A stretch of DNA of 64,000 nucleotides, taken from contig NZ_FOYX01000001.1 of the NCBI RefSeq assembly GCF_900112245.1, forward strand, positions 1,909,856 through 1,973,855. The letters are read 5' to 3'. Numbering within the stretch: position 1 is the first letter of the stretch; every line of letters starts with the position of its first letter. Source of the stretch: Maribacter stanieri (GTDB lineage Bacteria; Bacteroidota; Bacteroidia; Flavobacteriales; Flavobacteriaceae). The notes beneath the pieces were generated by a model. It made no database searches and was not told where the DNA came from. It saw only the letters and a list, made by a program, of their open reading frames with translations. Made by a program: the position numbers and the translations under genes. This document shows, piece after piece, positions 22,598 through 64,000 of the stretch.

Positions 22598-22607
22598 ATA
22601 CAAGGCA

Positions 22608-30757: not shown

Positions 30758-30765
30758 TATTTTTG
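30758..30765 (+). promoter_or_regulatory. -7 box of the first uxuA
   Basis: TATTTTTG matches TAnnTTTG and overlaps by two bases the LacI-type palindrome that follows. No clear -33 TTG is seen. Confidence 0.6.
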
Positions 30766-30777
30766 CAATCGATTACA
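30764..30777. promoter_or_regulatory. LacI-family operator upstream of the first uxuA
   Basis: TGCAATCGATTACA is the exact reverse complement of the uxaC operator at 16843-16856 and sits in the same place relative to the -7 box (centre about 13 bases after the box start, 15 at uxaC). It would give uxuA its own repressible promoter separate from the SDR gene before it. Confidence 0.75.
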
Positions 30778-30813
30778 TATGTAATATGTGATGATTTGTA
30801 ACATGTAGAACGT

Positions 30814-35486: not shown

Positions 35487-35505
35487 TTTTCTAAATTATA
35501 TTTTA

Positions 35506-46521: not shown

Positions 46522-48576
46522 ATGATTAAAAAATATAGATTAACACAATTCTTATTACTTGCCATGTGCATGGTATTTTGCCTGGCATGTAATACTGGTG
46601 TTGAACAACCATCAACTGTTTATTTAATTACAGGTGAAAATTCTAATGCTGTTGAAATTTCTACCATAAATGATTTAAAGAAAGACTTAGAAAAAGTTTT
46701 AAAAGAGGAGGTGCACATTGTAAAAGAAGGTGTGGAAATTCCGAATAAATCTTTGGTTTTTATAGTAGGTACAGCAAATTCCAATACCATTATCACGGAT
46801 ATGGCGACAAATGGGGAATTGGTTTTAACAGATTTACAACCAGGTCCTCGTGGTGGTATTTGGTCTAAAAATACATACACCGATTCTGATGTCATTGTAA
46901 TAGCGGGATCAGATGTACAGGGATTACAATATGCAATATATGATTACTCAAATCAGGTCTTAGGCGTAGATCCATTAGAATATTGGACAGGTAAAACACC
47001 GGTAGCATTAAAAGTTAATGATATTTACAATTTTGAACCAAAAACAATTGAACCACCTAGAGTTCCCAACTTAACATATTTTGAAAATGATGTAGATGAA
47101 TTGGCAAACTACAGAGGTGAGTTATTAAAATACGATTGGGAGAGTTATACTGAAATGATCAATTCTCTGGTACGCCTTCGATACAATTCAATTCAACTTT
47201 TTGATATGTTGGGTAGACCCGAGTTTTTTATTAGACCCGAGTATAAAGCCTTAAAACCAGATTATCAAATAGATATTGATTATGTGGAGAAAATGATAGA
47301 TTATGCCCATGAGAAAGGAATGAAGATAGCTGTAGATTTTGCTTTAGGTTATCAAATCCATCCTATGGATGCCGAGAAAGCAGATTGCTGGAAAACATAT
47401 AAAGCAGATTGGTTACAGGCTTGGCGCTATTATTTTGAACATACACCATTGTCAAAAACAGATATTTTTATTTTACGACCACGGCATCAAGTTTGGGATT
47501 GGGAATATGAAAGTACTTGTGGAGAAAGCAAAATTGAAGTATTCAATGAGGTTTATGCTGCTTTTGGAGAATTAGTGGATGAATATAAACCCAATTCTGA
47601 AAAAGTACTCGTATGTTATTCTGATGGTATGGAAATGTGGAACGAAGGTTTTAGACCTCCTACAGATTGGACAGTACTTTGGTCTGATCACGGATTTGGT
47701 GAATTTGAACATTTACCAAATACTACAGATGGTTATGATTTTGGCACCTATATGCATGCCGGTTATTGGTTGAACCATACCGTTCACAATCCTTATCCAG
47801 GGAAGGTGGAATTGGTAATGAAAGAAATGTTTCAGAAATATGAAGCTGACAATTATTGCTTGGTTAACGGTCAAAATTTCAGGCCATTTTTGTTGAACCT
47901 GGTCGCTTATAGTGAAGTATGTAACAATCCAGATACGTTTAATGCAGATGCTTTTTACAAAGAATGGACAGAACAATATTTTACACCTAAAGCAGCTGAA
48001 CACGCCGTTCAATCAATGAAATGGTTAAGCGAAGCTCAAGAAGGTAGAAAAGGGTATGTAGAACATTTATGGGAAATTAGAGAAGCTGTTTCATACCTTT
48101 CTAATGCACCGATCGTAAGACCAGGTAAATCTCCTGTACCATTTGATTATAATCGTGTAATTGGAGATGTGGAGAATGTAAAACGAGTGAAAGAAGTTTT
48201 AGAGAAATCACTTTCAGAGGCAGAATTAGGATATGAACTATTGAAGAGAAACGATAATTTTTACCATTCTTATATTCTTCTACCTGCTCAGCTTTATTCT
48301 GATTTAATAACTTTTGAAACAGAATTACACAACATGGCATTGCTTAAAAAGCAGTTTGAAACTACTAAGGATATAAAGTATTTAAACGAAGCAATTTCTT
48401 TGCTGCCAACGGCAAAGAATAAACTTAAAATCGTTTTTGATCATAGAAGTTCTGGTGATATCGATGACAAATGGAAGAATTGGTATTCGATAGCAAATAG
48501 AAGACAAAACAATGGTTTTCCTACCTATGAAATGCTAGATGCGATTGAGGCTAATCTTAATAAAATGACACTTTAA
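46522..48576 (+). CDS. Divergent GH115-like (alpha-glucuronidase-related) lipoprotein
   Basis: A 684-residue lipoprotein (lipobox LAC near residue 23). The plan follows that of GH115 enzymes: an N-terminal alpha/beta domain with GSDVQGLQYAIYDYSNQVLG and DPLEYWTGKTP, matching GSDRRGTAYGILELSRNIG and PWEWWADVTP of the full GH115 gene at 55854-58844; then a TIM barrel opening EMINSLVRLRYNSIQLFDM, like ELLLRLRANTIWPAM. It is 300 residues shorter, ending after a helical domain and lacking the C-terminal beta modules. Catalytic residues cannot be assigned. It may be a distinct family related to GH115/GH67 with a new specificity. It starts the enzyme block of the plus-strand arm. Confidence 0.6.
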   Translation: MIKKYRLTQFLLLAMCMVFCLACNTGVEQPSTVYLITGENSNAVEISTINDLKKDLEKVLKEEVHIVKEGVEIPNKSLVFIVGTANSNTIITDMATNGELVLTDLQPGPRGGIWSKNTYTDSDVIVIAGSDVQGLQYAIYDYSNQVLGVDPLEYWTGKTPVALKVNDIYNFEPKTIEPPRVPNLTYFENDVDELANYRGELLKYDWESYTEMINSLVRLRYNSIQLFDMLGRPEFFIRPEYKALKPDYQIDIDYVEKMIDYAHEKGMKIAVDFALGYQIHPMDAEKADCWKTYKADWLQAWRYYFEHTPLSKTDIFILRPRHQVWDWEYESTCGESKIEVFNEVYAAFGELVDEYKPNSEKVLVCYSDGMEMWNEGFRPPTDWTVLWSDHGFGEFEHLPNTTDGYDFGTYMHAGYWLNHTVHNPYPGKVELVMKEMFQKYEADNYCLVNGQNFRPFLLNLVAYSEVCNNPDTFNADAFYKEWTEQYFTPKAAEHAVQSMKWLSEAQEGRKGYVEHLWEIREAVSYLSNAPIVRPGKSPVPFDYNRVIGDVENVKRVKEVLEKSLSEAELGYELLKRNDNFYHSYILLPAQLYSDLITFETELHNMALLKKQFETTKDIKYLNEAISLLPTAKNKLKIVFDHRSSGDIDDKWKNWYSIANRRQNNGFPTYEMLDAIEANLNKMTL

Positions 48577-48586
48577 ATTGAAACTA

Positions 48587-50911
48587 ATGACATTTGCTCA
48601 CACATTAAAAAATAGCGTTGTCTTACTAAGTATTTTAATCTTGTTTTTAGGCTCTTGTAAACAACAGGTCAATGAAACCAAACCGGTCAGTGCTCCAGAA
48701 ATTGACTATGCGGCAAAGGTATATCCGCTTTTAGATACAGAAAATTCTAGGTGGTTTTACTTCTCATCGGCAAGTAGACCTTTTGGTATGGTCAACCTGA
48801 GTCCAGACACCCAAATTGGTGGCGCTTGGGGAAGTGGTTACCGATATAAGACAGATACTATAAAAGGTTTTAGCCATATTCATGCATGGCAAATGTCTGG
48901 TATTTCAGTGATGCCCGTAACTACCAATGAGAAAACCAAAGATGATATTTTTAAAGATTTTTATTCAAAATTCAATCATGATAATGAGGTTGTTATACCA
49001 GGTTATCATAAAGTTGAATTAGACAGATATGCAATAGAGGCTCAACTATCGAGTACTAAAAGAGTTGGTTTTCATCAATACACTTACCCGGATAACGAAG
49101 AGGAAAAGGCCATACTTTTTAATTTAAATACGTTATTAGGACCAAGTAGTAACATAGATGGAGTTTTGAATCAAAATTTTGACAATGAACTTTCAGGAAA
49201 AGTTACGATGGAGCCTACGCATAGGCGTCCAAAACCTATGACCGTTTATTTTAAAGTACAGCTGAATACTCAAATATCTTCTATTGAAAAAGATGATAGT
49301 ACAGGAAATTATCTCATCATATTAAATGAAAATAAGAATGATGTTTTAATGAAAGTGGGTATTTCTTATACCTCGGTTGCCAATGCTGAACTTAATATAA
49401 TTACAGAATTACCTAACTGGCAATTTGAAAACGTAAGAAGTGAAGCAAAACAAGAATGGAATAGTTTATTAGGCAGAATTGATGTTAAAGGCGGTTCTGA
49501 CCAAGATCAAAGAAGATTTTATACAGATTTATGGCATGCTTTACAGGGACGCAGAATTATAAATGACGTAAATGGTGCTTATCCTGATAATACTGGCGAA
49601 ATTTTTAGGATTGGACAATTGCCATTAGATGCTAATGGTACACCTAAGTTCAATCATTTTAATTCAGATTCTTTTTGGGGAGCACAATGGACTTTAAACA
49701 CGTTGTGGGGCTTGGTGTATCCAGAAATAATGTATGACTTTTCAAATTCTTTAATGCAGTATTATAAAGATGGCGGACTCGTACCACGTGGTCCTTCGGG
49801 AGGTAATTATACCTACGTGATGACAGGGGCAAGTGCTACACCTTTTATGGTTACTGCAATACAAAAAGGAATTATTGTAGATGAATTGGAAGACGTTTAC
49901 CAAGCTTTAAAGAAAAATCATTTAGCTGGAGGAATTATGGAGAAAGCCGGCTATGAGCACACTACTAATGTTGGTGGTGGCTTAGAATATTATATGGATC
50001 AAGGTTATGTGCCTTACCCTATTCCAGAAGGTAAATTTGGTAGCCATCAAGACGGTGCTAGTTTAACCATGGAATATGCGTACCAAGACTGGACGTTGGC
50101 GCAATTAGCGAAAAAGATGGGTCACAAAGAAGATTATGATTATTTCTTGGCGAGATCTTCTAGTTATAAAAATGTTTTTGATTCCGAAATAGGATGGATG
50201 CGTCCCAAAAATGTTGATGGAAAATGGAAAGCCGATTATGATCCATACCAAGCAGAAAATGGCTTTATAGAATCTAATGGAGCACAATCTACATGGTTTG
50301 TCCCTCATGATATAAAAGGACTGGCAAGCTTAATGGGAGGTGAAGATGCTGCTATTAGAAAGCTAAATGAACAGTTTGAAACTGCAGAAGATTTAGGTTT
50401 TACGGCGGGTACATCACATTCGGTAGAATTACATCCTGAGTATAGTAGAATTCCAATCAATTTTGGAAATCAACCTTCAATACAATCAGCTTTTATTTTT
50501 AGTCAATTAAATAGACCAGATTTAACCCAATTTTGGTCAAGAAAAGTGGCGAAAACTGTATTTGGCGGCTTATCACCATCCACCGGATACAATGGAGATG
50601 AAGACCAAGGATTAATGGGCAGTTTGGCTGTACTTATTAAAATTGGAATATTTCAAATGAACGGTGGTACAGAAGCTAATCCTGAATACCAAATAGGAAG
50701 CCCTATTTTCGAAGAGGTTACTATTAAATTGAATAAAGATTTTTATAGTGGCGACCTATTTACCATAAAAGCGAACAACAATAGTGATGCTAATTTTTAT
50801 GTATCAGAGGCCGAGTTTAACGGAATATCAATAAAAGCTAATAGCTTAAGACATGAAGATATTGTAAAAGGGGGCGAGCTAATTTTGGAAATGACCAATA
50901 CAGTAAAATAA
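48587..50911 (+). CDS. GH92 alpha-mannosidase-family lipoprotein
   Basis: A Ca2+-dependent exo-alpha-mannosidase-type enzyme of 774 residues (start ATG 48587; a TTG three codons upstream is less likely). The lipobox is LGSC. Family motifs: FSSASRPFGMVNLSPDT, GFSHIHAWQ, SDSFWGAQWTLNTLW, RGPSGGNYTYVMTG, FIESNGAQSTWFVPHD with the presumed catalytic Glu562, and YNGDEDQG with the base Asp pair. The usual GNEP-H motif of the sugar-binding site reads GNQPSIQ, so linkage or sugar preference may differ from standard mannosidases. It lies 10 bases after the GH115-like gene and 4 before GH29. Confidence 0.88.
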   Translation: MTFAHTLKNSVVLLSILILFLGSCKQQVNETKPVSAPEIDYAAKVYPLLDTENSRWFYFSSASRPFGMVNLSPDTQIGGAWGSGYRYKTDTIKGFSHIHAWQMSGISVMPVTTNEKTKDDIFKDFYSKFNHDNEVVIPGYHKVELDRYAIEAQLSSTKRVGFHQYTYPDNEEEKAILFNLNTLLGPSSNIDGVLNQNFDNELSGKVTMEPTHRRPKPMTVYFKVQLNTQISSIEKDDSTGNYLIILNENKNDVLMKVGISYTSVANAELNIITELPNWQFENVRSEAKQEWNSLLGRIDVKGGSDQDQRRFYTDLWHALQGRRIINDVNGAYPDNTGEIFRIGQLPLDANGTPKFNHFNSDSFWGAQWTLNTLWGLVYPEIMYDFSNSLMQYYKDGGLVPRGPSGGNYTYVMTGASATPFMVTAIQKGIIVDELEDVYQALKKNHLAGGIMEKAGYEHTTNVGGGLEYYMDQGYVPYPIPEGKFGSHQDGASLTMEYAYQDWTLAQLAKKMGHKEDYDYFLARSSSYKNVFDSEIGWMRPKNVDGKWKADYDPYQAENGFIESNGAQSTWFVPHDIKGLASLMGGEDAAIRKLNEQFETAEDLGFTAGTSHSVELHPEYSRIPINFGNQPSIQSAFIFSQLNRPDLTQFWSRKVAKTVFGGLSPSTGYNGDEDQGLMGSLAVLIKIGIFQMNGGTEANPEYQIGSPIFEEVTIKLNKDFYSGDLFTIKANNNSDANFYVSEAEFNGISIKANSLRHEDIVKGGELILEMTNTVK

Positions 50912-50915: not shown

Positions 50916-52211
50916 ATGAGAATCAAGGTATCAGTTCTATTGGCTCTTTTTTGCTCTACAATTTATTCACAAATAAATAATAGGGTAGATTTAGAACAGG
51001 ATTTTATGGATATGGGATTTGGGATATTTGTGCATTGGAGCGTTGATTCCCAATTAGGTAGTGTAATAAGTCACTCATTGGTAGGAGCATCAGATGATTA
51101 TGTTAATCGGTATTTTAATGAACTTCCTAAAACATTTTATCCAGATAAGTTTAACGCAGACGAATGGGCAAGGTTATTTAAAATAACTGGTGCTGAATAC
51201 GTTGTATTTACTACCAAACACCATAACGGATTTTGCATGTGGAATACGGAAACCACTGATTTTAACATCATGAATACTCCTTACGGTAAGGACATTACTG
51301 GTGAGCTTTTTAATGCATTACGTAAGCAAGGGCTAAAGGTAGGTGTGTATTTTTCTCCTGAAGATTTTAACTTTTTAAATAAGCAAGGAGAACTCATTTC
51401 AAGAAATAGTAGAATGAGTCAGATTACAGAAAATGAAGAACTGCTGGAGTACGATAAAATACAGGTCAAGGAATTGGTGAGCAATTACGGACCTATTGAC
51501 GTAATATTTTTCGATGCTTTTAAAACAACACCTATAGTACAGTATGTACATTCTTTAGACCCAAATATTGTAGTTACAAGAGGAGAAATGGAAACTCCAG
51601 AACAGAGTATACCCAATACAGCAATGCAAGGACCATGGGAAACCTGTATGACCATGGGAACCCAGTGGCAGTATAAACCTACTAATGAGTCTTATAAAAC
51701 TGGAACTGAATTAATTGAAAAACTAATAGAAATAAGAGCAAAAGGAGGTAACTTTTTAATGAATGTTGGTCCTAAGCCTAATGGCGAAATTCCAATAGAA
51801 CAAGAAGAACGGTTAAGAGAAATTGCCCTTTGGATGTATGTAAATAGTGAAGGGATCAAAAACGTAAGACCTGTGCCAACTATAATTAAAGATGGCGATA
51901 TGTGGTTTACTAAAGGTAAAGATGAAAATACGGCATATGTTTTTATAACTGGTCAAAAAGATTGGTTTAAAGGTTTTAGAAGAAATTTTCTGCTTAAAAA
52001 TATGAAGGCAACTAAAAATACGGCTGTTTCTGTTTTAGGGCAGAATGATTTAGTGGTTGAATATTGGCCGGAAAACACACCTAAATCTCAATTTGTTCAA
52101 CATAAAGATTTACTGGAAATCTCAATAAGTAGAGCACAACGGCTCTACAATGATAAGGTTTGGCCTAACCCTATTGTGGTTAAGGTGACAAATGTGGAAT
52201 TTATTAAATAG
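50916..52211 (+). CDS. GH29 alpha-L-fucosidase
   Basis: A retaining exo-alpha-L-fucosidase-type enzyme of 431 residues, with a signal peptide ending at IYSQ (about 19). The family N-terminal motif is FGIFVHWSVDSQLGS, followed by YVVFTTKHHNGFCMWNT and the nucleophile motif YGPIDVIFFDAF with Asp200. GGNFLMNVGPKPNGEIP is also typical of GH29. The length is close to the catalytic domain plus a short C-terminal beta domain. It sits tightly between the GH92 and GH3 genes. Fucose is the most likely target; some GH29 members accept other 6-deoxy sugars. Confidence 0.88.
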   Translation: MRIKVSVLLALFCSTIYSQINNRVDLEQDFMDMGFGIFVHWSVDSQLGSVISHSLVGASDDYVNRYFNELPKTFYPDKFNADEWARLFKITGAEYVVFTTKHHNGFCMWNTETTDFNIMNTPYGKDITGELFNALRKQGLKVGVYFSPEDFNFLNKQGELISRNSRMSQITENEELLEYDKIQVKELVSNYGPIDVIFFDAFKTTPIVQYVHSLDPNIVVTRGEMETPEQSIPNTAMQGPWETCMTMGTQWQYKPTNESYKTGTELIEKLIEIRAKGGNFLMNVGPKPNGEIPIEQEERLREIALWMYVNSEGIKNVRPVPTIIKDGDMWFTKGKDENTAYVFITGQKDWFKGFRRNFLLKNMKATKNTAVSVLGQNDLVVEYWPENTPKSQFVQHKDLLEISISRAQRLYNDKVWPNPIVVKVTNVEFIK

Positions 52212-52247: not shown

Positions 52248-54812
52248 ATGTCGATTAAGAAAATTGTACCATTATTCGCAATATTTATATTGATTCCCTT
52301 AGCTGGTTTCTCACAAAATCAATGGGAATTTCAAAATCAAGATTTACCGTTAGAAACAAGGGTAGATGATTTAATGACTAGACTATCTATTGAAGAAAAG
52401 GTTTCTTTGTTGATATCTACTTCAGAGGCTATTCCAAGATTAGAAATAGAAAATTATTATCATGGTAACGAAGCGTTGCACGGTGTAGTAAAAGGTGGTC
52501 GATTTACTGTTTTTCCGCAAGCAGTGGCATTGGCTTCAACATGGAATCCTAATTTAATACAACAAGTTTCAACCGCTATTTCAGATGAAGCTAGGGGTAA
52601 ATGGAATTTCTATAACCAAGGTAAAGATCAAAAGAATGTTTATAGTGATCTATTGACATTTTGGTCTCCGACCATTAATATGGCTAGAGACCCACGCTGG
52701 GGTAGAACTCCTGAAACTTATGGTGAAGACCCATATTTAACGAGTAGAATTGGTGTTTCCTTTGTCAAGGGATTACAAGGCGATGATGATAAATATCTAA
52801 AAGTAGTTTCTACACCGAAGCATTTTGTAGCCAATAACCAAGAAGAAAATAGGTTTGCTTACAACGCCAATATTTCAGAAAAATCTTTACGGGAATATTA
52901 TTTCCCTGCATATAAAATGGCTGTTCAAGAAGGTAATGCCCAATCTATTATGAGTGCATACAACGCTTTAAATGGAGTGCCTAGTACTGCAAATGGTTGG
53001 CTATTGAATACTGTTCTAAGAGATGAATGGGGTTTTGAGGGTTACGTAGTTAGTGATTGTGGTGCGCCCACCTATATTCAGAAATCGCACAAATATGTGA
53101 ATACAAAAGAAGAGGCTGCCAAGGTAGCTCTAGAAGGTGGACTTGATTTGGAGTGTGGAGACGATATTTATGCTGAACACCTAATAAAAGCATATGAAAA
53201 TGGGCTGGTGTCCCAAGAAAATTTAGATAAGGCGGTAAAAAGGGTTTTAACCGCTCGTTTTAAATTAGGGATTTTTGATAAAGTTGACGACAACCCTTAT
53301 ACTAAAATCTCGCCAGATGTAATTGGATCTAAAAAGCATCAAGAACTGGCATTGGAAACATCTAGACAATCTATGGTTTTGTTGAAGAATCAAAATGATA
53401 TTTTGCCTTTAAATGTAAGTGATATTAAAAAAATTGCGGTTGTTGGTTTTAATGCTAATCAAGTTGTTTTTGGTGATTATAGTGGTCTTCCCGTAATTAA
53501 ACCCATATCACCTTTAGAAGGTATTAGAAATAAAGTCGGTGATAAGGCAGAGGTCACTTATGTAAAATGGAAAACGGCGGCTAGAAACTTAAATTTAATT
53601 GAAGCTGAAAATTTAGTGAATGACCAAACTGGTGAACCGGGTTTGTACGGAGAATATTATGATGACAAGTTTTTAGAGGGCACGCCACAAACGCGCGTTG
53701 ATAAAGTGGTGAATTTTGACCCGGTAAATAATCCACCAGATCCGTTTACCAACTTTCGTCATAAATCTATGCGTTGGTCTGGTTACATAACTCCAAACTT
53801 TTCAGGAGTGTATAAGATTGGGGTGAATTCTGATGATGGGGTTCGTATGTGGTTGAATGGTGAATTGGTAGTTGATGAATGGCACAACCGTGGTATGACC
53901 ACAGACCAGGTAGAATTAGATATGGAGGCGGGTGAAAAATACGCTATTAAATTAGAGTATTTTGATAATGGAGGCGATGCCATTTGTCAATTGCTTTGGG
54001 AAGTACCAGCAACTACAGACGATTTATATACGGAGGACAAGCAGGTTGCCAAAGAGAGCGATTATGTGATAGCTGTAATGGGTATTAATAAATCAATTGA
54101 AAAGGAAGGTCGCGATAGAACTTCGTTAGCGTTGCCAGAAGACCAGGTCAATTATTTAAAAGAAATATATGCCGAGAACAGAGATCTAATTGTTGTTTTG
54201 GTTGCTGGTAGCTCTTTGGCTATTAATTGGATGGATGAAAATGTACCTGCAATTATAAATGCATGGTATCCGGGTGAAGCCGGCGGTACTGCCATTGCAG
54301 ATGTATTGTTTGGAGATTACAATCCTGCAGGTAGATTGCCATTTACCTTTTACAAATCGGTTTCAGATTTACCTGATATGGATGATTACGAGGTGTCTAA
54401 TGGTAGAACATATATGTATTTTAAGGGAGACGTACTGTATCCTTTCGGATATGGATTAAGTTATACCCAATTTAAATATGATTCTTTAAAAGTAAAGTCT
54501 GAATCTGATGCTGTTTTAATATCTGCAACAATTAAAAATACCGGGACATTTAGTGGCGATGAGGTAGTGCAGTTGTATTATACGGTTAATAATTCAGCTG
54601 TAAAAAGACCTATTAAAAAATTGATAGGGTTCGAAAGAATCAGCTTAAATGTTGGAGAATCAAAAACTATTGAATTTAAAGTGACTAAAAATGACCTGCA
54701 GTATTGGGATGAAAAAGCTAATCAATGGTCGTTCGAAAAAGGCGAATATCAATTTATGATAGGGTCATCTTCTAAAGATATACGACTTCAAAAATCAAAA
54801 AAAATAAAATAA
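52248..54812 (+). CDS. GH3 beta-glycosidase with inserted PA14 domain
   Basis: An exo-beta-glucosidase/xylosidase-type enzyme of 854 residues, with a signal peptide ending at GFSQ. The TIM-barrel domain has HGNEALHGV, FPQAVALASTWNP, NMARDPRWGRTPETYGEDPYL, TPKHFVANNQ and the nucleophile motif VVSDCGA with Asp270 (Cys replaces the common Trp). The second domain is interrupted by a PA14 module (about 463-585, GLYGEYYDD to LLWEVP), followed by the acid/base region and a fibronectin-III-like end. The sugar cannot be fixed; glucose, xylose or a uronate-linked residue are possible. The stop codon overlaps the next gene by one base (TAATG). Confidence 0.92.
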   Translation: MSIKKIVPLFAIFILIPLAGFSQNQWEFQNQDLPLETRVDDLMTRLSIEEKVSLLISTSEAIPRLEIENYYHGNEALHGVVKGGRFTVFPQAVALASTWNPNLIQQVSTAISDEARGKWNFYNQGKDQKNVYSDLLTFWSPTINMARDPRWGRTPETYGEDPYLTSRIGVSFVKGLQGDDDKYLKVVSTPKHFVANNQEENRFAYNANISEKSLREYYFPAYKMAVQEGNAQSIMSAYNALNGVPSTANGWLLNTVLRDEWGFEGYVVSDCGAPTYIQKSHKYVNTKEEAAKVALEGGLDLECGDDIYAEHLIKAYENGLVSQENLDKAVKRVLTARFKLGIFDKVDDNPYTKISPDVIGSKKHQELALETSRQSMVLLKNQNDILPLNVSDIKKIAVVGFNANQVVFGDYSGLPVIKPISPLEGIRNKVGDKAEVTYVKWKTAARNLNLIEAENLVNDQTGEPGLYGEYYDDKFLEGTPQTRVDKVVNFDPVNNPPDPFTNFRHKSMRWSGYITPNFSGVYKIGVNSDDGVRMWLNGELVVDEWHNRGMTTDQVELDMEAGEKYAIKLEYFDNGGDAICQLLWEVPATTDDLYTEDKQVAKESDYVIAVMGINKSIEKEGRDRTSLALPEDQVNYLKEIYAENRDLIVVLVAGSSLAINWMDENVPAIINAWYPGEAGGTAIADVLFGDYNPAGRLPFTFYKSVSDLPDMDDYEVSNGRTYMYFKGDVLYPFGYGLSYTQFKYDSLKVKSESDAVLISATIKNTGTFSGDEVVQLYYTVNNSAVKRPIKKLIGFERISLNVGESKTIEFKVTKNDLQYWDEKANQWSFEKGEYQFMIGSSSKDIRLQKSKKIK

Positions 54813-55876
54813 TGAAACAGACCATTGCTTTGTGTATGTTGTTATTTGCTTTTGCATTCGTAGGCTGTAAGAGCAAACATGTGTCACTAAACGATATTCA
54901 AGTAATAGGTAGTCATAATTCATATAAAATTGCGATTGAAAGACCGTTGTACGACTACTTACATACGGTGGAACCAAAGAAAATAGAAAGTTTGCAATAC
55001 ACCCATATTTCTTTAGAGGAACAATTGAATTTAGGTTTACGGAATTTAGAATTGGATGTTTTTTATGATCCAAAAGGAAATCATTTTTCTAACCCTAAAG
55101 GATTAGAAATAGTAAGATCTCTTGGTCAAGAACCTTTGACTTTTGATGTGGAAGAAAAGTTGAAACAACCCGGACTTAAAATGTTTCATGTTCAGGATAT
55201 TGATTTTAGAAGCCACTATTTATTGTTTTCTGATGGATTAAAAGCCTTGAAAAAATGGTCGGATAACAACCCAAATCATACTCCTTTAATTATTCTCATC
55301 AATACGAAAGATCAAAAAGTATTACAAACCAGAGAACCTTTGTCATTTGATAAAAGCGCCTTAAATGCGCTTGATGATGAAATAAAAAGTGTGCTTCCTG
55401 CAAGTCAATTAATAACTCCAGATGATGTTAGGGGTGATTTTGAATCCCTTGAAAAAGCTATTTTAACAAAGGGGTGGCCAAGCTTGAATAGTGTAAAAGG
55501 GAAGTTCTTATTTGTATTGGATGAAAAAGAAGAGCGTATTCAGAATTATTTACAAGGTCATGAATCGCTTAGGGGTAGGGTGCTTTTTGTGAATAGCAAA
55601 GAAGGTAATCCTGAAGCTGGTTTTAGAATAGTAAATAATCCGATTAAAGAGTTGGCGTATATAAAAGAACTGGTTTCTAAAGGGTATATGGTTCGTACTA
55701 GGGCAGATGCCGGTACCAAAGAAGCAAGAACAAATAGCTATGAAAAATTTGAGAAGGCAAAGGCATCGGGAGCGCAAGTAATCTCTACAGATTATTATGT
55801 GCCTTCCACATTATTTGATTCTGATTATAAAGTGATTTTTGAAGATGGAACGTATGAGAAAATTAAGAAAAAGTAA
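54812..55876 (+). CDS. Ca2+-dependent PI-PLC-like lipoprotein
   Basis: A 354-residue lipoprotein (lipobox VGC near residue 19) of the Ca2+-dependent phosphoinositide phospholipase C family (PI-PLC-C1). Matching motifs are LNDIQVIGSHNSYK with the first catalytic His, QYTHISLEEQLNLGLRNLELDVFYDP with metal-ligand residues, PGLKMFHVQDIDFRSHY with the second His, and the end ISTDYYVPS. The position normally holding an acidic residue in a LLExK segment reads LINTK, so one metal ligand may be missing or replaced. The family cleaves phosphodiesters of inositol lipids. It overlaps GH3 by one base and the GH115 gene by 23 bases, so it is firmly part of the operon. Confidence 0.83.
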   Translation: MKQTIALCMLLFAFAFVGCKSKHVSLNDIQVIGSHNSYKIAIERPLYDYLHTVEPKKIESLQYTHISLEEQLNLGLRNLELDVFYDPKGNHFSNPKGLEIVRSLGQEPLTFDVEEKLKQPGLKMFHVQDIDFRSHYLLFSDGLKALKKWSDNNPNHTPLIILINTKDQKVLQTREPLSFDKSALNALDDEIKSVLPASQLITPDDVRGDFESLEKAILTKGWPSLNSVKGKFLFVLDEKEERIQNYLQGHESLRGRVLFVNSKEGNPEAGFRIVNNPIKELAYIKELVSKGYMVRTRADAGTKEARTNSYEKFEKAKASGAQVISTDYYVPSTLFDSDYKVIFEDGTYEKIKKK

Positions 55877-58844
55877 CTTAATAAAGAAGATAGTTGTAAC
55901 GCTCATTTACATTCAAGTGGCAGTATTAGCGGCACAAGAGCAAGCTACTTCTGATTTTGTACTAGTAGCGGGAAATACGATTGCCTCTATTTTAGTAGAT
56001 AAGAAAGATGCAAAGGTTGTAACTATAGCATCAAATATATTTGCAACTGACGTTTATAACATCACAGGAAAAAAGCCTGTTGTCTCCACTAAAGATAGTA
56101 GGTCTGAAACTACAATAATTGCCGGTACAATAGGTAAGAATAAATGGATTGATAGCATGATCGCTGCTGGTAAAATTGATGTTTCTGAAATTGAAAATCA
56201 ATGGGAACGATATAGTATTCAAATAGTTGAAAACCCAACATCCACCATTAAGAAAGCTTTAGTTGTTGTAGGTAGTGATAGAAGAGGAACAGCTTATGGT
56301 ATTTTAGAACTTTCCAGAAATATAGGCGTATCTCCATGGGAATGGTGGGCAGATGTTACACCAGAAAAAAAAGAGTCGCTCTCAATTTCTATAGAAGAAG
56401 AAGTTTCAAAATCTCCTTCCGTAAAGTATAGAGGAGTCTTTTTAAACGATGAAGATTGGGGATTACAACGTTGGGCAGCTTTAAATTATGAGCCAGAAAC
56501 TGGTGATATAGGTCCAAAAACTTATGCCAAAGTATTTGAATTGTTATTACGATTAAGGGCAAATACTATTTGGCCTGCCATGCATTCTAGTACTAAACCT
56601 TTTTATTCGTATCCAGAAAATAAGTTTGTGGCAGATGATTATGCCATTGTTATTGGTACATCGCATGCTGAACCCATGCTTAGTAATATAAATACCGAAT
56701 GGAAACATGACGAAATGGGGGAGTATAGGTATGATACCAATTCAGAAACCATTAAGAGTTTGTTCACCAAAAGAGTAAAAGAAACAGCCAAATTAGAAGG
56801 TATTTACACTACGGGTATGCGTGGTGAGCATGATTCTCCAATGATCGTTGGTGAGGATGATACTGATGCTCAAGTACATTTATTGGAACGTGTAATTACC
56901 GACCAACGAGCCATTTTAAAAAAGGAGACCAAGAAAGAACCATCAAGTATTCCACAAGCTTTTGTGCCATATAAAGAGGTGTTGAATTATTACCAAAGCG
57001 GACTAAAATTACCTGAGGATATCACTTTGGTTTGGACCGATGACAACTACGGGTACATTCGTCAATTAAGTAATCCGCAAGAGCAAAAAAGAGCTGGTGG
57101 AGCTGGGGTATACTATCATACCTCATATTGGGGTAGGCCGCATGATTATTTGTGGTTGAATTCTACCAATCCGGTTTTAATGTGGGAAGAAATGTCCAAA
57201 GCTTACGAGTTCCAATCTCGTGATATTTGGATTCTAAACTGCGGTGATATAAAACCACATGAATATAACATTGAACTGTTTTTAGATATGGCTTGGAATA
57301 TGGAGGACTTTAAAGAAAGTTCGTCTGTAAAAGAGCATACCAAAAATTGGTCTTCGCGTGAATTTGGTGAAGCATCTGCAGCTAAAATAACAGATGTATT
57401 ATTTGAAAATAACCGCTTGGCGTATATAAGAAGACCGGAGTTTATGGCGTGGAGCCAGGTGGAGCCCGTAACTAAAGAAGGCGAAACAGAATTAACACAG
57501 TTTCATTATGGTGATGAGGTTTCAGCACGCATAGAAAGCTATCAAGGTTTAATTGATATTACTGAAAGTTTATATACTGAAATACCAGCCTATAGAAAAG
57601 ATGCTTTTTATCAATTGGTGTATTATCCGGTTATTGGCGCTTCAAAATTAAATCAGAAATGGTCGTATAGTTTTAAGAACAAGTTTACCGCAAAGCAAGG
57701 CAGACAAAGTGCTAATGCTTTTGGGGCTTTATCTGAAGAAGCTTATAATCGAATTCGTAAAGAAACCGATTACTACAATACAGTGCTTAAAAATGGTAAA
57801 TGGAATCATATTATAACGATGGCTCCACGTTTTCTTTCTGTTTTTGCACAGCCAGCAACATCAACTATTACTAGCAGCGAAAAAACTAGTTTGGGTTTAG
57901 CCTTGGAAGGGTATCAGATGGAGGTTAATGATAAGGTAATTAATAGCTATGCAGATGTACTTCCTGTTTTTAATAGCTATACTAAGAGTACTTATTATAT
58001 TGATGTTTTTGCAAATGGTAAGGGTACGGTTAATTGGGAAGCAAAACCCAAGGCAGATTGGATTCGTTTATCAGAAAGTAAAGGGACCTTAACTTCCGAT
58101 AATTTAGAAAAACGTATTTGGGTCAGTATCGATTGGAGTAAAGTTCACCAAGGCGAGAATAAAAAAGAAGCTCCACTAGGGCACGACTTTCAATTGATTC
58201 CGCCGAGTTATAAGGTGAATAGTGCTATTGAATTTATATCAGAAGGGAAAACTACTACCATTGGTGTATCTGCTTACAATCCTAAATTCGAGGCATTAAA
58301 AAACTACAATGGTTTTGTTGAGGATAAGGGTTATGTATCTATACATGCCGAAAACTTCACCAGAATGAAAGAAGGTAATGAGGCAAATTGGAAGTTATTT
58401 GAAGGAATGGGCTATACCAATAAGGTCATAACTGCACTTCCTAGAACTGCAACGCCTTTGGTAGATTTAGAGGAAATAAAAGCGAATAGTCCGGTTTTGG
58501 AATATGATTTTTATACTTTTAATTTTGGTGAGGTAGATGTGAATATACAAGCGGTGCCCACTCATGCCCCATATGCTGGAATAGGTGTTCGCTGTGCAAT
58601 TTCTATTGATGATGCTACACCGGTATTTGTAGATTTTGAAACTACAGGTCGTAGTGAGGAATGGAAAGAAAATGTGCTTAAAAATGCATCGGTACAAACG
58701 GCAAAACAAATTGTAAATAAGGCAGGAAAACATACATTGAAAATATGGATGGTAGATCCTGGAGTACTAATAGATCAAGTGTTGATAGATTTAGGTGGAT
58801 GGAAAAAGAGCTATGCGTTTCCGAAAGAAACGGTCAAAAAGTAA
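55854..58844 (+). CDS. GH115 alpha-glucuronidase
   Basis: Removes alpha-linked (4-O-methyl-)glucuronic acid from glycans. The protein is 996 residues from the ATG at 55854, which gives a signal peptide (MRKLRKSNLIKKIVVTLIYI, then LAAQ); in-frame starts at 55839 and 55845 are less likely. An N-terminal alpha/beta domain (GSDRRGTAYGILELSRNIG, SPWEWWADVTP) is followed by the catalytic barrel (YRGVFLNDEDWGLQRWA, RANTIWPAMH, TGMRGEHDSPM, VWTDDNYGYIRQLS, GGAGVYYHTSYWGRPHDYLW), a helical domain, and C-terminal beta modules. The length is normal. The gene overlaps the PI-PLC gene by 23 bases. Confidence 0.95.
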   Translation: MRKLRKSNLIKKIVVTLIYIQVAVLAAQEQATSDFVLVAGNTIASILVDKKDAKVVTIASNIFATDVYNITGKKPVVSTKDSRSETTIIAGTIGKNKWIDSMIAAGKIDVSEIENQWERYSIQIVENPTSTIKKALVVVGSDRRGTAYGILELSRNIGVSPWEWWADVTPEKKESLSISIEEEVSKSPSVKYRGVFLNDEDWGLQRWAALNYEPETGDIGPKTYAKVFELLLRLRANTIWPAMHSSTKPFYSYPENKFVADDYAIVIGTSHAEPMLSNINTEWKHDEMGEYRYDTNSETIKSLFTKRVKETAKLEGIYTTGMRGEHDSPMIVGEDDTDAQVHLLERVITDQRAILKKETKKEPSSIPQAFVPYKEVLNYYQSGLKLPEDITLVWTDDNYGYIRQLSNPQEQKRAGGAGVYYHTSYWGRPHDYLWLNSTNPVLMWEEMSKAYEFQSRDIWILNCGDIKPHEYNIELFLDMAWNMEDFKESSSVKEHTKNWSSREFGEASAAKITDVLFENNRLAYIRRPEFMAWSQVEPVTKEGETELTQFHYGDEVSARIESYQGLIDITESLYTEIPAYRKDAFYQLVYYPVIGASKLNQKWSYSFKNKFTAKQGRQSANAFGALSEEAYNRIRKETDYYNTVLKNGKWNHIITMAPRFLSVFAQPATSTITSSEKTSLGLALEGYQMEVNDKVINSYADVLPVFNSYTKSTYYIDVFANGKGTVNWEAKPKADWIRLSESKGTLTSDNLEKRIWVSIDWSKVHQGENKKEAPLGHDFQLIPPSYKVNSAIEFISEGKTTTIGVSAYNPKFEALKNYNGFVEDKGYVSIHAENFTRMKEGNEANWKLFEGMGYTNKVITALPRTATPLVDLEEIKANSPVLEYDFYTFNFGEVDVNIQAVPTHAPYAGIGVRCAISIDDATPVFVDFETTGRSEEWKENVLKNASVQTAKQIVNKAGKHTLKIWMVDPGVLIDQVLIDLGGWKKSYAFPKETVKK

Positions 58845-60685
58845 ATCAAATTAGTATAAGATGGCACTATAGATTTTTATGTGTTGCTGTGCTATTTTTG
58901 ATATTTTCTTGTGATAATAATAGAGAAGAGGAATTTAAAGAAACGAAAATTGCATTCATTGCAGATGCCCATTTTCAAGATATCTATGCACATTTCGCAG
59001 ATGCCGATTACAAAGGAATAGAAAACCCACAAACGGGCGGCTTTGTGAACATTCGTACCATGAATGCGCAATTACAGTCTACCAGAATATTCAATGAAAA
59101 TTATTTTGCATTTATTGAAGCACTAGATGATATTGTAACCAAGGGAATTAAATTAGTAGCATTGCCAGGAGATTTTAGTGATGATGGGCAACCTGTTCAC
59201 GTTAAGGGTTTACGAAAGATTTTGGACAAGTATTCTAAAGACCATGGAATACTCTTTTTTGCAACTACGGGAAATCATGATCCTGTAAAACCTTTTACAC
59301 AAGAAGCGGGTAAAACAGATTTTTTAGGTGTAGGAGGTAAAGAGCAAATTATTACAAGTTCTATTAAAAATATTAAGGGTACTGTCGCGGGTCAGCTTAC
59401 ACCGATTATTACTTCGGGAATTCAAAAATGGGGATACCAAGATATATTAAATGAAATGTCTGCCTTTGGTTTTTATCCAAAGAAAGAATATTTGTATTGG
59501 GAAACTCCTTTCACTGAATATGCTTACGAAGAGTATACTTTTGATACAGCGATAAAAGCATCTACATTAAGCAAAAGAACCTATGCTATTGATGAATTTA
59601 ATAAGCACCCAGATGCTAGTTATTTGGTAGAACCAACTGAAGGCGTTTGGTTATTGGCACTAGATGCCAATGTATATCTGCCCAAAAAAAAAATATCAGA
59701 AGTTTCTGAAAATGCCAATGATTTTGAAGGTGCCAGTATTGGTTACAATAACGTGCTTTTACAAAAAAGACATTTAATTGATTGGGTGAAAAAAGTATCA
59801 GAGAAGGCTAAAAAAATGAACAAGGTCTTAATTGCTTTTAGTCATTACCCTATGGTAGATTTTAATGACGATGCATCAGAAGAAATGATACATTTTTTTG
59901 GTGGAAATAATATGCAATTACACCGAGTACCAAAAGAAGAGGTAGCAGAGCTATTTGCAGATGCAGGTATTGAAATTCACTTTGGTGGTCATATGCATAT
60001 TAATGATACTGGTGTAAGAATAAGTACAAAAGGAAACACTTTATACAATATTCAAACTCCGTCATTGGCAGCTTATGCACCTGGTTATAAGATTTTAACT
60101 ATACATTCTACGAATGATTTTGAAGTAGAGACTGTGGTGATTGAAAAAGCCAAAAACTTCAATAGTTTGTATTCTTTATATGAGCAAGAACATGATCATT
60201 TAAAAGAAACGCAAGCACCTGAAATTTGGAATAAAGACATTTTAACAGCTGAGAATTATAGAGATTTTACACAATGGCATTTAAAGGAATTGGTTAGGCT
60301 TCGTTTTTTGCCAAATGATTGGTCTCAAAAATTTGTTGAATCTTTTATACATAAAACAGGTGAAGAGCTTTTAATGGCTCAAAACGATGATCTTGACAAT
60401 AGTTTTAATAGCGCCAATTTATCTAGAGGTGATTTTAAGGCCTGGACGGGTTTTGACATGATATATGATTTTTATCGCTTAAGAAGTGCAGATGAATTGG
60501 CTTTTACAGATATTGGTGAAGCTCGTTTAAAACAATATGAAATAGTTTGTAAGCAGTTGAAAGAATCTGAAAATAGCGCTTACAGACTATGGGCCAATAT
60601 TTTCGAGAAGAGTATAAATGGCAAACCTTCCGATCATTTTAAAATAGATTTAAAACAAGGTACTATTGAAAGTATAACACCTTAA
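58799..60685 (+). CDS. Calcineurin-like metallophosphoesterase lipoprotein
   Basis: An exported phosphoesterase of about 628 residues. All motifs of the superfamily are present: IAFIADAHFQD (Asp, His), LPGDFSDDG, TTGNHDP, FSHYPMVDF and FGGHMHINDTG. The signal WHYRFLCVAVLFLIFSC ends in lipobox FSC. The start is unclear: the ATG at 58799 adds a charged 20-residue lead and overlaps GH115 by 46 bases, while a clean signal would need a rare ATT at 58850. The C-terminal 200 residues are helical with no named domain. Its likely role is to remove phosphate groups, or cleave a phosphodiester, from the glycan or lipid headgroup. Confidence 0.85.
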   Translation: MEKELCVSERNGQKVNQISIRWHYRFLCVAVLFLIFSCDNNREEEFKETKIAFIADAHFQDIYAHFADADYKGIENPQTGGFVNIRTMNAQLQSTRIFNENYFAFIEALDDIVTKGIKLVALPGDFSDDGQPVHVKGLRKILDKYSKDHGILFFATTGNHDPVKPFTQEAGKTDFLGVGGKEQIITSSIKNIKGTVAGQLTPIITSGIQKWGYQDILNEMSAFGFYPKKEYLYWETPFTEYAYEEYTFDTAIKASTLSKRTYAIDEFNKHPDASYLVEPTEGVWLLALDANVYLPKKKISEVSENANDFEGASIGYNNVLLQKRHLIDWVKKVSEKAKKMNKVLIAFSHYPMVDFNDDASEEMIHFFGGNNMQLHRVPKEEVAELFADAGIEIHFGGHMHINDTGVRISTKGNTLYNIQTPSLAAYAPGYKILTIHSTNDFEVETVVIEKAKNFNSLYSLYEQEHDHLKETQAPEIWNKDILTAENYRDFTQWHLKELVRLRFLPNDWSQKFVESFIHKTGEELLMAQNDDLDNSFNSANLSRGDFKAWTGFDMIYDFYRLRSADELAFTDIGEARLKQYEIVCKQLKESENSAYRLWANIFEKSINGKPSDHFKIDLKQGTIESITP

Positions 60686-60760: not shown

Positions 60761-63700
60761 ATGCGAAATGTTTTCTGCATATTTATAAGTATTATTTTAT
60801 TTGCTGCAAGCCTAACGGCTCAGGATATAAAATTTGAACATTACAATGACGACAGTGGGTTGTCTCATAATGCTGTTAGGCATATTGTACAAGATAAACA
60901 TGGGTTTTTATGGTTAGGTACATTCGCTGGTTTAAATAGATTTGATGGCTATGAGTTTAAATCTTACTTAAGCTCTTCTACAGATAAGACCAAACTACAT
61001 AATGATGATATTACAGCTTTAGAGTTAGATGAGGATTCTAACAGCTTATGGATCGGTACCAGAAATGGTCTGTCCCTTTTTAAAACCGATACCCACACAT
61101 TTAGCACCTATTTGCCAGAAAAGAATAATGAAAACAGTCTTCCAGAAGGAGAGATAAGATCTGTTTATGTCGATAAATTTAAAAGGATTTGGGTTGGTAC
61201 AAAGAACAGTGGACTCTATATTTTAAAAAGTAAAACGGATACATTCAAGAAAGTAGAAATTAAAAATTTCAACTATATAAAGGCAATTGTTGAAGATAAG
61301 AACGGAGATATATGGATAGGTAGTTATGAATCTGGTGGTGTAGCTAAATTGACTTTGGGCGCAGAAGGAGAAATTATTCAAAAAAATATATATAACCTTT
61401 CGATACCAAATTCGGTTGAAAAAAATCCGTACTTAAACTTTATATATGAAGATGCAAAATCGGATATTTTCATAGGTACTAGAGTAGGACTCTATAAACT
61501 AAATAAAACCACTAATGAGTTTGTAAACCTTGAAATTGAAGATCCTGGGATTAAAGATGGTTTAGGACCTTATTTTCTTTCAGTAACTCAAGCACCAGAT
61601 GGTAAATATTGGGTAGGTACATTAGGAGGTTTACTAGTTTGCGATCAGTTAGAAGATATAGGTAAAGGTGAATTTAAATGGCATTATTCCGTATTGCCAG
61701 ATGATACCTCTTTGGTAGATAATTTGGTGTCAGCACTATTTTTTGATGATTCAGGAGTGTTATGGATTGGTACTGAAGATGGTTTGGATAAATATGATCC
61801 ATTTGAAAATCAGTTTAATAGCAATAAGGACATTTCCTTACATATAAATAATCAGGTTCCAAGAATTAGAGGATTTAGCAAAACCTTTGATAATAAAGTG
61901 GTAGTTGCAACAAGGCACAACGGACTTTTTATATCAAATGAAGAAGATTTTTTACCGCTTTATAACAACCAAAAAGATATTGCAAGTATTTATTCTATAG
62001 ATGGCACTATATTTTACTGTGGTTTATGGAATGGGAATTTATTGGTATATGATTATAAAGCAAACTCGGCTAAAGAAATTTCGGTTGGTTTTGAACAATC
62101 ACCAATATTTGCTTTTGAGGCGTTAGATGAAAATCATTTACTATTGGGCTCTTTTGGGGAGGGAACTGTGTTATTGAATACCAAAAGCCTTAAGAAAGCA
62201 GATAGTACAGCTATAATTTTAAATGGATATCAAATAAATGAAATCGTTAAGCAAGATGATTCCAATATTTGGTTTGCTACCGAGACTGGGGTTGTTCACT
62301 TTTTAAGGGATAAAAACACTTTTGAATATTATAAATCTACTGATACACCAAACGTAGGATTGCTACATGATAATGTGAGTGATATTATGTTTGATAACGA
62401 AGGGCGACTGTGGGCGGCAACAAGAAAAGGTATTAGTCTTTTTGATTTTGAGACCAAAGAATTTAATCCTTTAGAGGAACCTGTAGAGTTAAGGGATAAG
62501 TGGATAACCGATATGCTTACCTATACCAATGGTGATATCTGGTTTAACATGAACAGTAACAGTGTAGCCAGGTTAAAATCAAATTTAAAAAATTACAATA
62601 TTTATGATGTTAAAAGTGGTAATAGGTTAGATGTTTTTAGCTCAAGTGGTTTTTACAATTTTGAAAATTCCAATATATATTTAGGAGGAAAGAATGGAAT
62701 TATCTATTTTTCACCATATGCCATAAGTGAGAACAAAGTTGCCAAAAAGCCAATGATTACTGAGTTTAAGATTCAGAATGAGGTGATACATCCAGGTACT
62801 GAAATTAATGGCGAAATTCCATTAAAGAAAAATTTAAACGAAACTAAAAGTGTAACCTTAGATTATAAGAATAGAAATTTTTCACTTCAATTCTCTGCAC
62901 CTTCATACGTAAATGAAAAGCTTAACAAGTTTGAATATATGCTAGAAGGTTTTGATGAAAACTGGATTTCTACAACCAGTAATTCAAGAACCGTACAATA
63001 CACCAACTTGTTTCCTGGCGACTATACTTTTAAAATTAAATCTAGTAATAGTGATGGTTTTTGGAGTGATGTAAATTCATATAATATTACAGTAACTCCT
63101 CCTTTTTGGTTAACCTATCAAGCATTGATATTATTTCTAGCCTTATTCGCTTTAATCATATATTTCATAAGGAAAGAAATGAAAAACAGGTTGCGTTTAA
63201 AGCAAGAACTTGTTACCGAAAAAGTAAATAGGGAACGCGATATTAAGTTGAATAATGAAAAGCTTCGCTTTTTTACAAATATATCTCACGAGCTAAGAAC
63301 TCCTTTGACTTTAATATTAGGTCCTGCAAAACAGTTGTTAGAAGAAAGCAACGAAAACAGTAGCGAGTATCAAAAAAGCAGATTTAATCTAATTCATCAA
63401 AATGCAAGTAGACTTTTAAATTTAGTGAATCAGGTGCTAGATTTTAGAAAGGCACAAACGGGTGAATTAAAACTTAAGGTTTCTAAAACAGATGTGCTAT
63501 TATTTACCACCAACACGTTTGAATCTTTTAAGGAGTTTGCTTACAATAAGCAAATAGAACTGAATATTAATAGCGAAGTAGAGACGCTATTTGGTTGGAT
63601 AGATAGAGATAAATTCGACAAAATTTTATATAACCTTTTGTCTAACGCCATTAAGTTTACCAACAAATACGGTCATGTAGATTTATTTCTAAAGCTAAAA

Positions 63701-64000
63701 GAAAACAATAGTGAAATATTGGTTATTGAAGTTAGCGATGATGGTATTGGTATACCCTTAAAAAGTCAAGAAAAAATATTTACCAGATTTTACCAAGCCA
63801 CCAATAGTAAAGAGAACAATACAGGTTCAGGTATTGGTCTGTCACTTGTAAAATCTCTTGTAGAATTACATAAGGGAACTATAGTTGTAGAAAGTAAACC
63901 TAATGAAGGGAGTACGTTTACGGTAGAAATACCTATTAGTCGAGATAGTTATACTAAAAAAGAGGTCTTTGAATTTATTTCTAATACTGAGGTAGAAGAG
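60761..64000 (+). CDS. Hybrid two-component system sensor/regulator, 3' end outside window
   Basis: Senses a glycan fragment in the periplasm and controls the locus. The frame is open from the ATG at 60761 to the window edge (1080 residues seen). A signal peptide (to LTAQ) is followed by about 700 residues of two-component propeller repeats (LSHNAVRHIVQDKHGFLWLG, LWIGTRNGLSLF), a Y_Y_Y domain, and a membrane span near 785-808. The histidine kinase has FFTNISHELRTPLTL with phosphoacceptor His843 and the ATPase motifs NLLSNAIKFTN and GSGIGLSLVK. Receiver and AraC-type DNA-binding domains are expected beyond the edge. It lies 75 bases after the phosphoesterase gene. Confidence 0.93.
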   Translation, partial: MRNVFCIFISIILFAASLTAQDIKFEHYNDDSGLSHNAVRHIVQDKHGFLWLGTFAGLNRFDGYEFKSYLSSSTDKTKLHNDDITALELDEDSNSLWIGTRNGLSLFKTDTHTFSTYLPEKNNENSLPEGEIRSVYVDKFKRIWVGTKNSGLYILKSKTDTFKKVEIKNFNYIKAIVEDKNGDIWIGSYESGGVAKLTLGAEGEIIQKNIYNLSIPNSVEKNPYLNFIYEDAKSDIFIGTRVGLYKLNKTTNEFVNLEIEDPGIKDGLGPYFLSVTQAPDGKYWVGTLGGLLVCDQLEDIGKGEFKWHYSVLPDDTSLVDNLVSALFFDDSGVLWIGTEDGLDKYDPFENQFNSNKDISLHINNQVPRIRGFSKTFDNKVVVATRHNGLFISNEEDFLPLYNNQKDIASIYSIDGTIFYCGLWNGNLLVYDYKANSAKEISVGFEQSPIFAFEALDENHLLLGSFGEGTVLLNTKSLKKADSTAIILNGYQINEIVKQDDSNIWFATETGVVHFLRDKNTFEYYKSTDTPNVGLLHDNVSDIMFDNEGRLWAATRKGISLFDFETKEFNPLEEPVELRDKWITDMLTYTNGDIWFNMNSNSVARLKSNLKNYNIYDVKSGNRLDVFSSSGFYNFENSNIYLGGKNGIIYFSPYAISENKVAKKPMITEFKIQNEVIHPGTEINGEIPLKKNLNETKSVTLDYKNRNFSLQFSAPSYVNEKLNKFEYMLEGFDENWISTTSNSRTVQYTNLFPGDYTFKIKSSNSDGFWSDVNSYNITVTPPFWLTYQALILFLALFALIIYFIRKEMKNRLRLKQELVTEKVNRERDIKLNNEKLRFFTNISHELRTPLTLILGPAKQLLEESNENSSEYQKSRFNLIHQNASRLLNLVNQVLDFRKAQTGELKLKVSKTDVLLFTTNTFESFKEFAYNKQIELNINSEVETLFGWIDRDKFDKILYNLLSNAIKFTNKYGHVDLFLKLKENNSEILVIEVSDDGIGIPLKSQEKIFTRFYQATNSKENNTGSGIGLSLVKSLVELHKGTIVVESKPNEGSTFTVEIPISRDSYTKKEVFEFISNTEVEE

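Follow-up and report, generated by a model that had tools for sequence, protein, structure and literature searches.

A polysaccharide utilization-type locus of Maribacter stanieri probably directed at glucuronosyl-inositol phospholipid glycans

We analyzed a stretch of 64,000 nucleotides from Maribacter stanieri (contig NZ_FOYX01000001.1 of RefSeq assembly GCF_900112245.1, positions 1,909,856 to 1,973,855; here "the window"), situated on contig C9 of a 4.46-Mb genome, in which a PI-PLC-C1 phospholipase gene lies within a cluster of glycosidase genes, all on the plus strand. The cluster opens with a SusC-type TonB-dependent transporter (41405..44482; TIGR04056, 822 bits) and a SusD-type protein (44501..46150; SusD_RagB, 101 bits; SusD-like_3, 82 bits), followed by a divergent GH115-like protein that we call GH115L (46522..48576; PF15979, 62 bits with a cut-off of 27; lipobox recognized by eye), a member of the exo-alpha-mannosidase family GH92 (48578..50911; PF07971, 442 bits), a GH29 alpha-L-fucosidase family protein (50916..52211; PF01120, 250 bits) and a GH3 protein with a PA14 insert (52248..54812; PF00933, PF01915 and PF07691). 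Then come PI-PLC-C1 (54812..55876; PF16670, 418 bits with a cut-off of 29.9, positions 2 to 326 of 329; lipobox by eye), a GH115 alpha-glucuronidase family protein of the group found at inositol-type loci (55845..58844; PF15979, 440 bits, plus GH115_C), an exported metallophosphoesterase (58745..60685; PF00149, 39 bits; PDB neighbor Lmo2642, E value of 5.4e-7) and a hybrid two-component system regulator (HTCS; 60761..64000), which continues past the window end (L003:617-4651). Directly after the HTCS, 0.9 kb beyond the window, lie an inositol oxygenase gene, MIOX (L003:4805-5683; 292 residues; PF05153, 373 bits), and a sodium/solute symporter of the SSS family (L003:5773-7350; 725 bits). With SusC/SusD, GH92, GH29, GH3, GH115 and HTCS on one strand and intergenic gaps of -32 to 371 bases, the cluster has the make-up of a polysaccharide utilization locus (PUL).

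Neighboring overlaps chain GH3, PI-PLC-C1, GH115 and the phosphoesterase together across 52248-60685. The last base of GH3 (54812) is the first of PI-PLC, and the overlap of PI-PLC with GH115 is 32 or 23 bases depending on whether GH115 begins at the ATG at 55845 or at 55854, both likelier than the TTG at 55839 given by the list of open reading frames (the profile scan was taken from 55866). The start of the phosphoesterase is likewise uncertain, the candidates being an ATG (58745) and an in-frame position close to 58799, and its profile scan was taken from 58841, a GTA and so no start codon. An earlier sequence-only reading of this DNA had named these four genes, with PI-PLC overlapping both of its neighbors and with GH92, GH29 and a second GH115-like gene on the same strand; the profile matches and coordinates agree with it in all of these points, the last three genes lying upstream.

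To evaluate how far this gene set recurs, we read 20 kb around the family and genus PI-PLC matches outside the window genome, as well as 17 named matches (some from the same genomes). Of the 36 genus genomes, 9 have PI-PLC-C1, and of the 299 family genomes, 21 have it over its full length. The family counts retain PI-PLC matches above 380 bits (in 21 genomes out of 24) and MIOX matches above 300 bits (in 44 out of 121). The window PI-PLC shares 80 to 90% identity with its counterparts in four Maribacter records. Distinct PI-PLC loci with glycosidases number 21, i.e., the window, added by hand, and 20 others, in which gene order and accessory genes vary. With queries taken from the window or from sister loci, scores above 140 bits counted, and neighboring stretches added for L063, L067, L070, L074, L077 and L021 and none for L013, GH92-type genes and an HTCS are present in all 21, the phosphoesterase in 20 (not L074) and GH115 or GH115L in 20 (not L015). 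MIOX lies inside or next to 20 of them (none was seen at L013, where the flank is short). The recurrence of PI-PLC together with GH92-type genes and an HTCS at 21 loci goes beyond chance.

MIOX follows PI-PLC also at the level of whole genomes. It was found in 17 of the 21 family genomes with PI-PLC versus 27 of the 278 without (299 genomes; Fisher P value of 1.3e-12) and in 9/9 genus genomes with PI-PLC versus 11/27 without (P value of 0.002). The two genes were no more than 25 kb apart in 11 of the 21 PI-PLC genomes versus 0.2 pairs expected by chance, assuming 4-Mb genomes. Within the same distance, GH115 and MIOX formed 11 pairs in 10 genomes versus 0.35 expected, one of them (G149:C22:211510, L093) involving a GH115 from outside the inositol-locus group, located in another cluster. 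GH115L and MIOX were paired in 6 genomes versus 0.14 expected, from a list that also includes three other GH115 places of 195 to 249 bits (G282, G207 and G037:C31) with zero pairs and from which one 23-bit fragment was dropped. GH115 or GH115L also accompanies MIOX where PI-PLC does not adjoin (L088, L089, L090 and L091-L092); three of these four genomes have no PI-PLC match, and the fourth (G187) has PI-PLC on another contig. A second kind of MIOX (type B, 313 to 328 bits) was rejected as linked, since PI-PLC or GH115 lay no further than 25 kb away at only 1 of its 26 places (G041). Near a PI-PLC on contig C3 of the same genome (position ~86117, L065) there is a MIOX match interrupted by two TGA codons in frame, which may be a decayed copy.

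We fetched MIOX stretches from 20 of the 28 nonwindow genomes. Eighteen such genomes lay outside the Flavobacteriaceae; 13 MIOX stretches from these were read, and neither PI-PLC nor GH115 was found in them, while two (L155 and L157) carry GH89. Within the family and outside the 21 loci, L143, L144, L146, L147, L149, L150 and L151 hold HTCS, MIOX and a symporter, mostly with the phosphoesterase and a GH2, and in L151, which is cut on one side, PI-PLC, phosphoesterase, HTCS and MIOX stand in a row. The recognized core of four short clusters (L094, L095, L096 and L097) consists of SusC, SusD, GH115L, GH92 and HTCS, perhaps a minimal locus for Man-GlcA-inositol (mannose-glucuronic acid-inositol). 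In eighteen further PI-PLC loci no glycosidase of the searched classes was found, apart from weak GH3/GH29 matches in L065; most of these loci have SusC and six have the phosphoesterase. Three glycosidase-free loci in this sense (L071, L079 and L080) have uxaC and a TRAP transporter of the uronate type as neighbors.

The GH115 proteins of these loci form a group of their own. The window GH115 has BtGH115A (5by3) as its nearest PDB sequence (E value of 1.1e-182) and shares with it and with the xylan GH115 alpha-1,2-glucuronidases the GH115 and GH115_C profiles and the R-G-x-x-D and N-D-E motifs. N194, D195, R319 and D323 are invariant in 11 aligned proteins, and by our own mapping R319, D323 and D195 correspond to the Arg, Asp and Asp residues considered in BoAgu115A and wtsAgu115A (PMC9063842). 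In a tree that omits the near-duplicate loci L055, L057, L058 and L060 as well as proteins no longer than 800 residues (e.g., L100), and whose root serves for drawing only, a branch supported at 100/100 separates 20 locus GH115s from 25 other family GH115s, taken from the 44 family GH115 places outside inositol-type loci (BtGH115A is not in the tree). Characterized GH115s act on xylan, as do most of them, or on arabinogalactan; BtGH115A is reported as arabinogalactan active, though arabinogalactan GlcA is beta-linked (PMC9063842). The true substrate of BtGH115A may be worth examining against GlcA-inositol compounds. GH115L is more distant, with its 62-bit PF15979 match, no match to GH115_C and an R-G-x-x-D motif that aligns uncleanly. 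Its predicted model (pLDDT of 70.6, low TM-scores) resembles GH115, GH138 and GH67 uronidase structures, and hhalign relates it to GH115 with a probability of 99.

PI-PLC and GH115 have two further neighbors in the sister loci L013 (Flavobacterium undicola) and L067, namely an alpha-N-acetylglucosaminidase of family GH89 and a membrane protein. The two copies of the membrane protein scanned score 153 to 164 bits with the model of the glucosamine N-acetyltransferase NagX, below its cut-off of 480, and another copy reaches 33.7 with the HGSNAT model, whose cut-off of 22 it exceeds. This NagX/HGSNAT-like protein is present in 8/8 tabulated GH89 loci, six of which also have the locus-type GH115, and L100 has the protein with no GH89 in the stretch read. 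Lysosomal heparan degradation includes a step that uses HGSNAT and NAGLU (GH89), and the sister loci likewise pair a glucosamine N-acetyltransferase relative with a GH89, which would take hexosamine (HexN) off GlcA. In contrast to the lysosomal pair, the sister loci have inositol catabolism alongside; the pair is missing from the window's own cluster, where profile scans of the cluster genes gave no GH89.

Glycosyl inositol phosphorylceramides (GIPCs), the glycosylated forms of inositol phosphorylceramide (IPC), offer head groups for both kinds of locus. HexN- and HexNAc-GlcA-IPC (HexNAc, N-acetylhexosamine; also written HexN-/HexNAc-HexA-IPC, HexA being hexuronic acid) have been reported in barley, and the seagrass Zostera noltii is reported to contain related GIPCs of the B series (PMC12201980); Man-alpha1,4-GlcA-alpha1,2-myo-inositol is reported to be released by rose cells (PMC4230332). 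An acetyltransferase and a GH89, which could acetylate glucosamine (GlcN) and then remove GlcNAc from GlcA, fit the needs of the HexN-/HexNAc-GlcA-IPCs, and the GH92 and GH115 of the window-type cluster fit the rose compound. By gene content, the two versions of the locus would correspond to the two head groups of plant GIPCs, Man-GlcA-inositol-phosphate and GlcN(Ac)-GlcA-inositol-phosphate.

The window also contains genes for the use of glucuronate. MIOX converts inositol to glucuronate; the locus MIOX aligns with the inositol oxygenase 2huo over 266 residues (E value of 1e-86), with identical residues at the His/Asp positions of 2huo, among them those that we take to bind the di-iron centre. 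Outside the cluster itself, uronate genes extend over 16970..24224 (plus strand) and comprise UxaC (675 bits; 619 bits with the glucuronate isomerase model), TRAP transporter parts (DctP, 270 bits; DctM, 418 bits), a tagaturonate reductase (650 bits) and an altronate/galactarate-type dehydratase (GD_AH_C, 319 bits). They are followed by a short-chain dehydrogenase/reductase (SDR) mannonate oxidoreductase (NF006132, 308.7 bits with a cut-off of 281) and a mannonate dehydratase, UxuA (TIGR00695, 456 bits), at 29912..32010 on the plus strand, and by a second UxuA (442.8 bits) and SDR (adh_short, 142.5 bits) at 34308..36321 on the minus strand. With MIOX downstream and these genes in the window, inositol as well as GlcA could be turned into glucuronate and so feed a single pathway, in line with the earlier suggestion that the locus feeds glucuronate to uxuA/SDR genes. 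The likeness to iol clusters lies in myo-inositol as a carbon source, and the difference lies in the MIOX route; in a survey of bacterial inositol catabolism, 2% of the 810 Flavobacteriaceae had iol clusters, and inositol oxygenase is named once in the portion considered here, for yeast (PMC9430895). Two tandem tRNA-Glu genes at 720-906 of the window are unrelated to the locus.

H35, N36, E80, D82 and H126 of the PI-PLC, for whose His, Asn, Glu and Asp we assume catalytic roles as in PLC-delta, are invariant in all 40 sequences fetched. In the predicted model (pLDDT of 75.7) the loop from 31 to 38 is poorly modeled, and its best foldseek matches were 3h4w and 5fyr, with PLC-delta later and TM-scores below 0.6. 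Asn164, within the motif LINTK, aligns with a Glu of 3h4w and an Asp of 5fyo, an acidic position that is presumably a metal ligand. The acidic residue of characterized Ca2+-dependent PI-PLCs, which is not a condition of PF16670, is hence replaced in the window protein, as the sequence-only reading had pointed out, but its concern over activity falls away, as Asn is the majority state among relatives (34/40, the remaining 6/40 having Glu) and seems from this alignment to be a common natural alternative. On the same count, LINTK was rejected as a sign of a dead PI-PLC. Asn164 was also rejected as a mark of glycan-type loci, since it occurs in glycosidase-free ones (e.g., L061, L062, L076, L079 and L080). 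In four loci the PI-PLC is fused to an N-terminal BD-FAE-like esterase domain (L011:9137-10981, L012:9134-10984, L015:9146-10996 and L068:8659-10509), and in L075 an SASA/BD-FAE esterase stands immediately ahead of it, which suggests an acyl group to be removed next to the PI-PLC step.

Considering all of this, and with MIOX and the symporter beyond the window as the strongest clue, we take the cluster to be a PUL-type locus whose target is a phospholipid glycan with glucuronosyl-inositol, most probably the GIPC head groups of plants or algae (Man- or HexN(Ac)-GlcA-inositol-P-ceramide), a reading to which we give a probability of roughly 0.6. Gene content, recurrence, co-occurrence, conserved positions and the GH115 grouping are observed, whereas what follows on the substrate, the succession of steps, the specificity of transporter and sensor, and all enzyme activities is inferred. 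GH29, GH3 and GH92 would trim the outer sugars, GH92 taking the alpha-Man off GlcA; GH115 and/or GH115L would remove the alpha-1,2-GlcA from inositol, freeing its 2-OH; PI-PLC would then split inositol phosphate from ceramide, and the phosphoesterase would free inositol and phosphate. The SSS symporter would import the inositol, MIOX would turn it into glucuronate, joining the released GlcA in the route through UxaC, mannonate oxidoreductase and UxuA, and the HTCS would sense one of the products. The classical PI-PLC mechanism uses the inositol 2-OH, so that if GlcA sits on O2 of inositol, GH115 is expected to act before PI-PLC. The proposal of an inositol-phospholipid glycan locus made in the sequence-only reading gains support from MIOX, the symporter, the co-occurrence and co-location, the separate GH115 group and the GH89 and acetyltransferase relative of sister loci, but its order, with the phosphodiester cut first, may have to be reversed.

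Several observations weigh against this interpretation. GH29 (11/21 loci, with the window GH29 as the query) and GH3 (9/21) are variable, and GH29, like the GH28 of sister loci, is without a clear role on known GIPCs. The co-occurrence among relatives partly reflects shared descent, so that the events are not all independent, and 10 of the 21 family PI-PLC genomes hold PI-PLC loci without the searched glycosidase classes (some unclassified open reading frames in them were not scanned). The set also comes apart elsewhere: L117 and L121 combine this type of GH115 with GH89 in genomes that have no strong MIOX match, and L105 and L108 have GH89, NagX and MIOX in 20 kb without GH115. Finally, the host is marine; GIPC is on record for the seagrass Z. 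noltii (PMC12201980), but red algae are reported with IPC only (PMC4820303), and no GIPC in algae was found in our literature search. GH125 with two GH92 genes in L063, L070 and L090 would also suit a glycosylphosphatidylinositol (GPI) glycan, i.e., a locus for GPI anchors (Man3-GlcN-inositol-P-lipid), perhaps those of GPI-anchored arabinogalactan proteins, in which alpha-mannosidases, acetyltransferase plus GH89, and PI-PLC would dismantle the anchor, with the attached glycan left to GH115 and GH29. PI-PLCs cleave GPI, the GH89 and NagX-like protein of sister loci would find a use, MIOX suits any inositol source, and BtGH115A, the nearest GH115 structure, has its reported arabinogalactan activity. 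However, to our knowledge the GPI core carries no GlcA, while a GH115-type gene is present in 20 of the 21 loci and accompanies MIOX where PI-PLC is lacking; the window cluster has no GH89, and the GlcA of arabinogalactan is noted to be beta-linked (PMC9063842). We consider a GPI anchor unlikely as the general explanation, and a possible target of some of the loci.

The gain could be more in phosphorus than in carbon if the glycosidases open glycosylated inositol lipids for scavenging, as in PUSI of Flavobacterium johnsoniae (Fjoh_4168/9 and 4171-4173), where PusCD1 stands beside the same pair of PI-PLC-C1 and PF00149, under an ECF sigma factor and induced by phosphate depletion (PMC8115612). 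The window cluster shares SusCD, PI-PLC-C1 and PF00149 with PUSI, and the 18 PI-PLC loci without the searched glycosidases, a common type, resemble it. Where PUSI has an ECF sigma factor, the locus studied here has an HTCS as regulator, and it has glycosidases, MIOX and HTCS, none of which is named in the available part of the PUSI description (PMC8115612). MIOX and the symporter point to carbon use, and MIOX occurs with GH115 or GH115L in the loci without PI-PLC nearby listed above, all of which makes phosphate scavenging a quite improbable main function. Least probable, and very doubtful, is an ordinary polysaccharide locus (glucuronoxylan, sulfated glucuronomannan or arabinogalactan) into which PI-PLC and the phosphoesterase strayed. 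The preference of most characterized GH115s for xylan (PMC9063842), the window GH3, nearest to xylosidases, and GH92, typical of marine glucuronomannan loci (PMC9723552), would fit it, but none of the 12 profile-scanned cluster genes is a xylanase, GH43, GH105 or sulfatase. Putative glucuronomannan PULs are defined by GH92 together with a sulfatase, and their GlcA is beta-linked (PMC9723552). PI-PLC, GH115-type genes and MIOX recur together, and the 25 GH115s of other contexts lie across the 100/100 branch. Glucuronoxylan, arabinogalactan and glucuronomannan were rejected as the main substrate on the basis of the missing enzymes and of this recurring set.

Cleavage of plant GIPCs by a microbe has been reported for the GIPC phospholipase C of Botrytis cinerea, which releases inositol phosphate glycans; this is the point in common with our locus, whereas that enzyme is fungal and came from sphingomyelinase candidates, not from PI-PLC-C1 (PMC11496612). 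Among the matches listed in the open-licence PMC literature on GIPC with PULs, CAZymes, GH families or flavobacteria, judged mostly by title and start of the abstract, there was no bacterial GIPC gene cluster. We would give about even odds to these loci being a new class of glycan locus for plant-type sphingolipid head groups, with interchangeable Man- and GlcN(Ac)-cap versions, a GH115 group moved from polysaccharides to GlcA-alpha1,2-inositol, and MIOX converging the inositol and GlcA arms on one uronate pathway.

GIPCs have been called major sphingolipids on Earth (PMC11907402). If our interpretation of a GIPC locus is true, it would provide concrete genes for their turnover in the sea and on land, candidate enzymes for the GlcA-alpha1,2-inositol linkage in GH115 and GH115L, and tools for the analysis of GIPC head groups. 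It would also mean that the Flavobacteriaceae possess a MIOX-based route for inositol, separate from iol.

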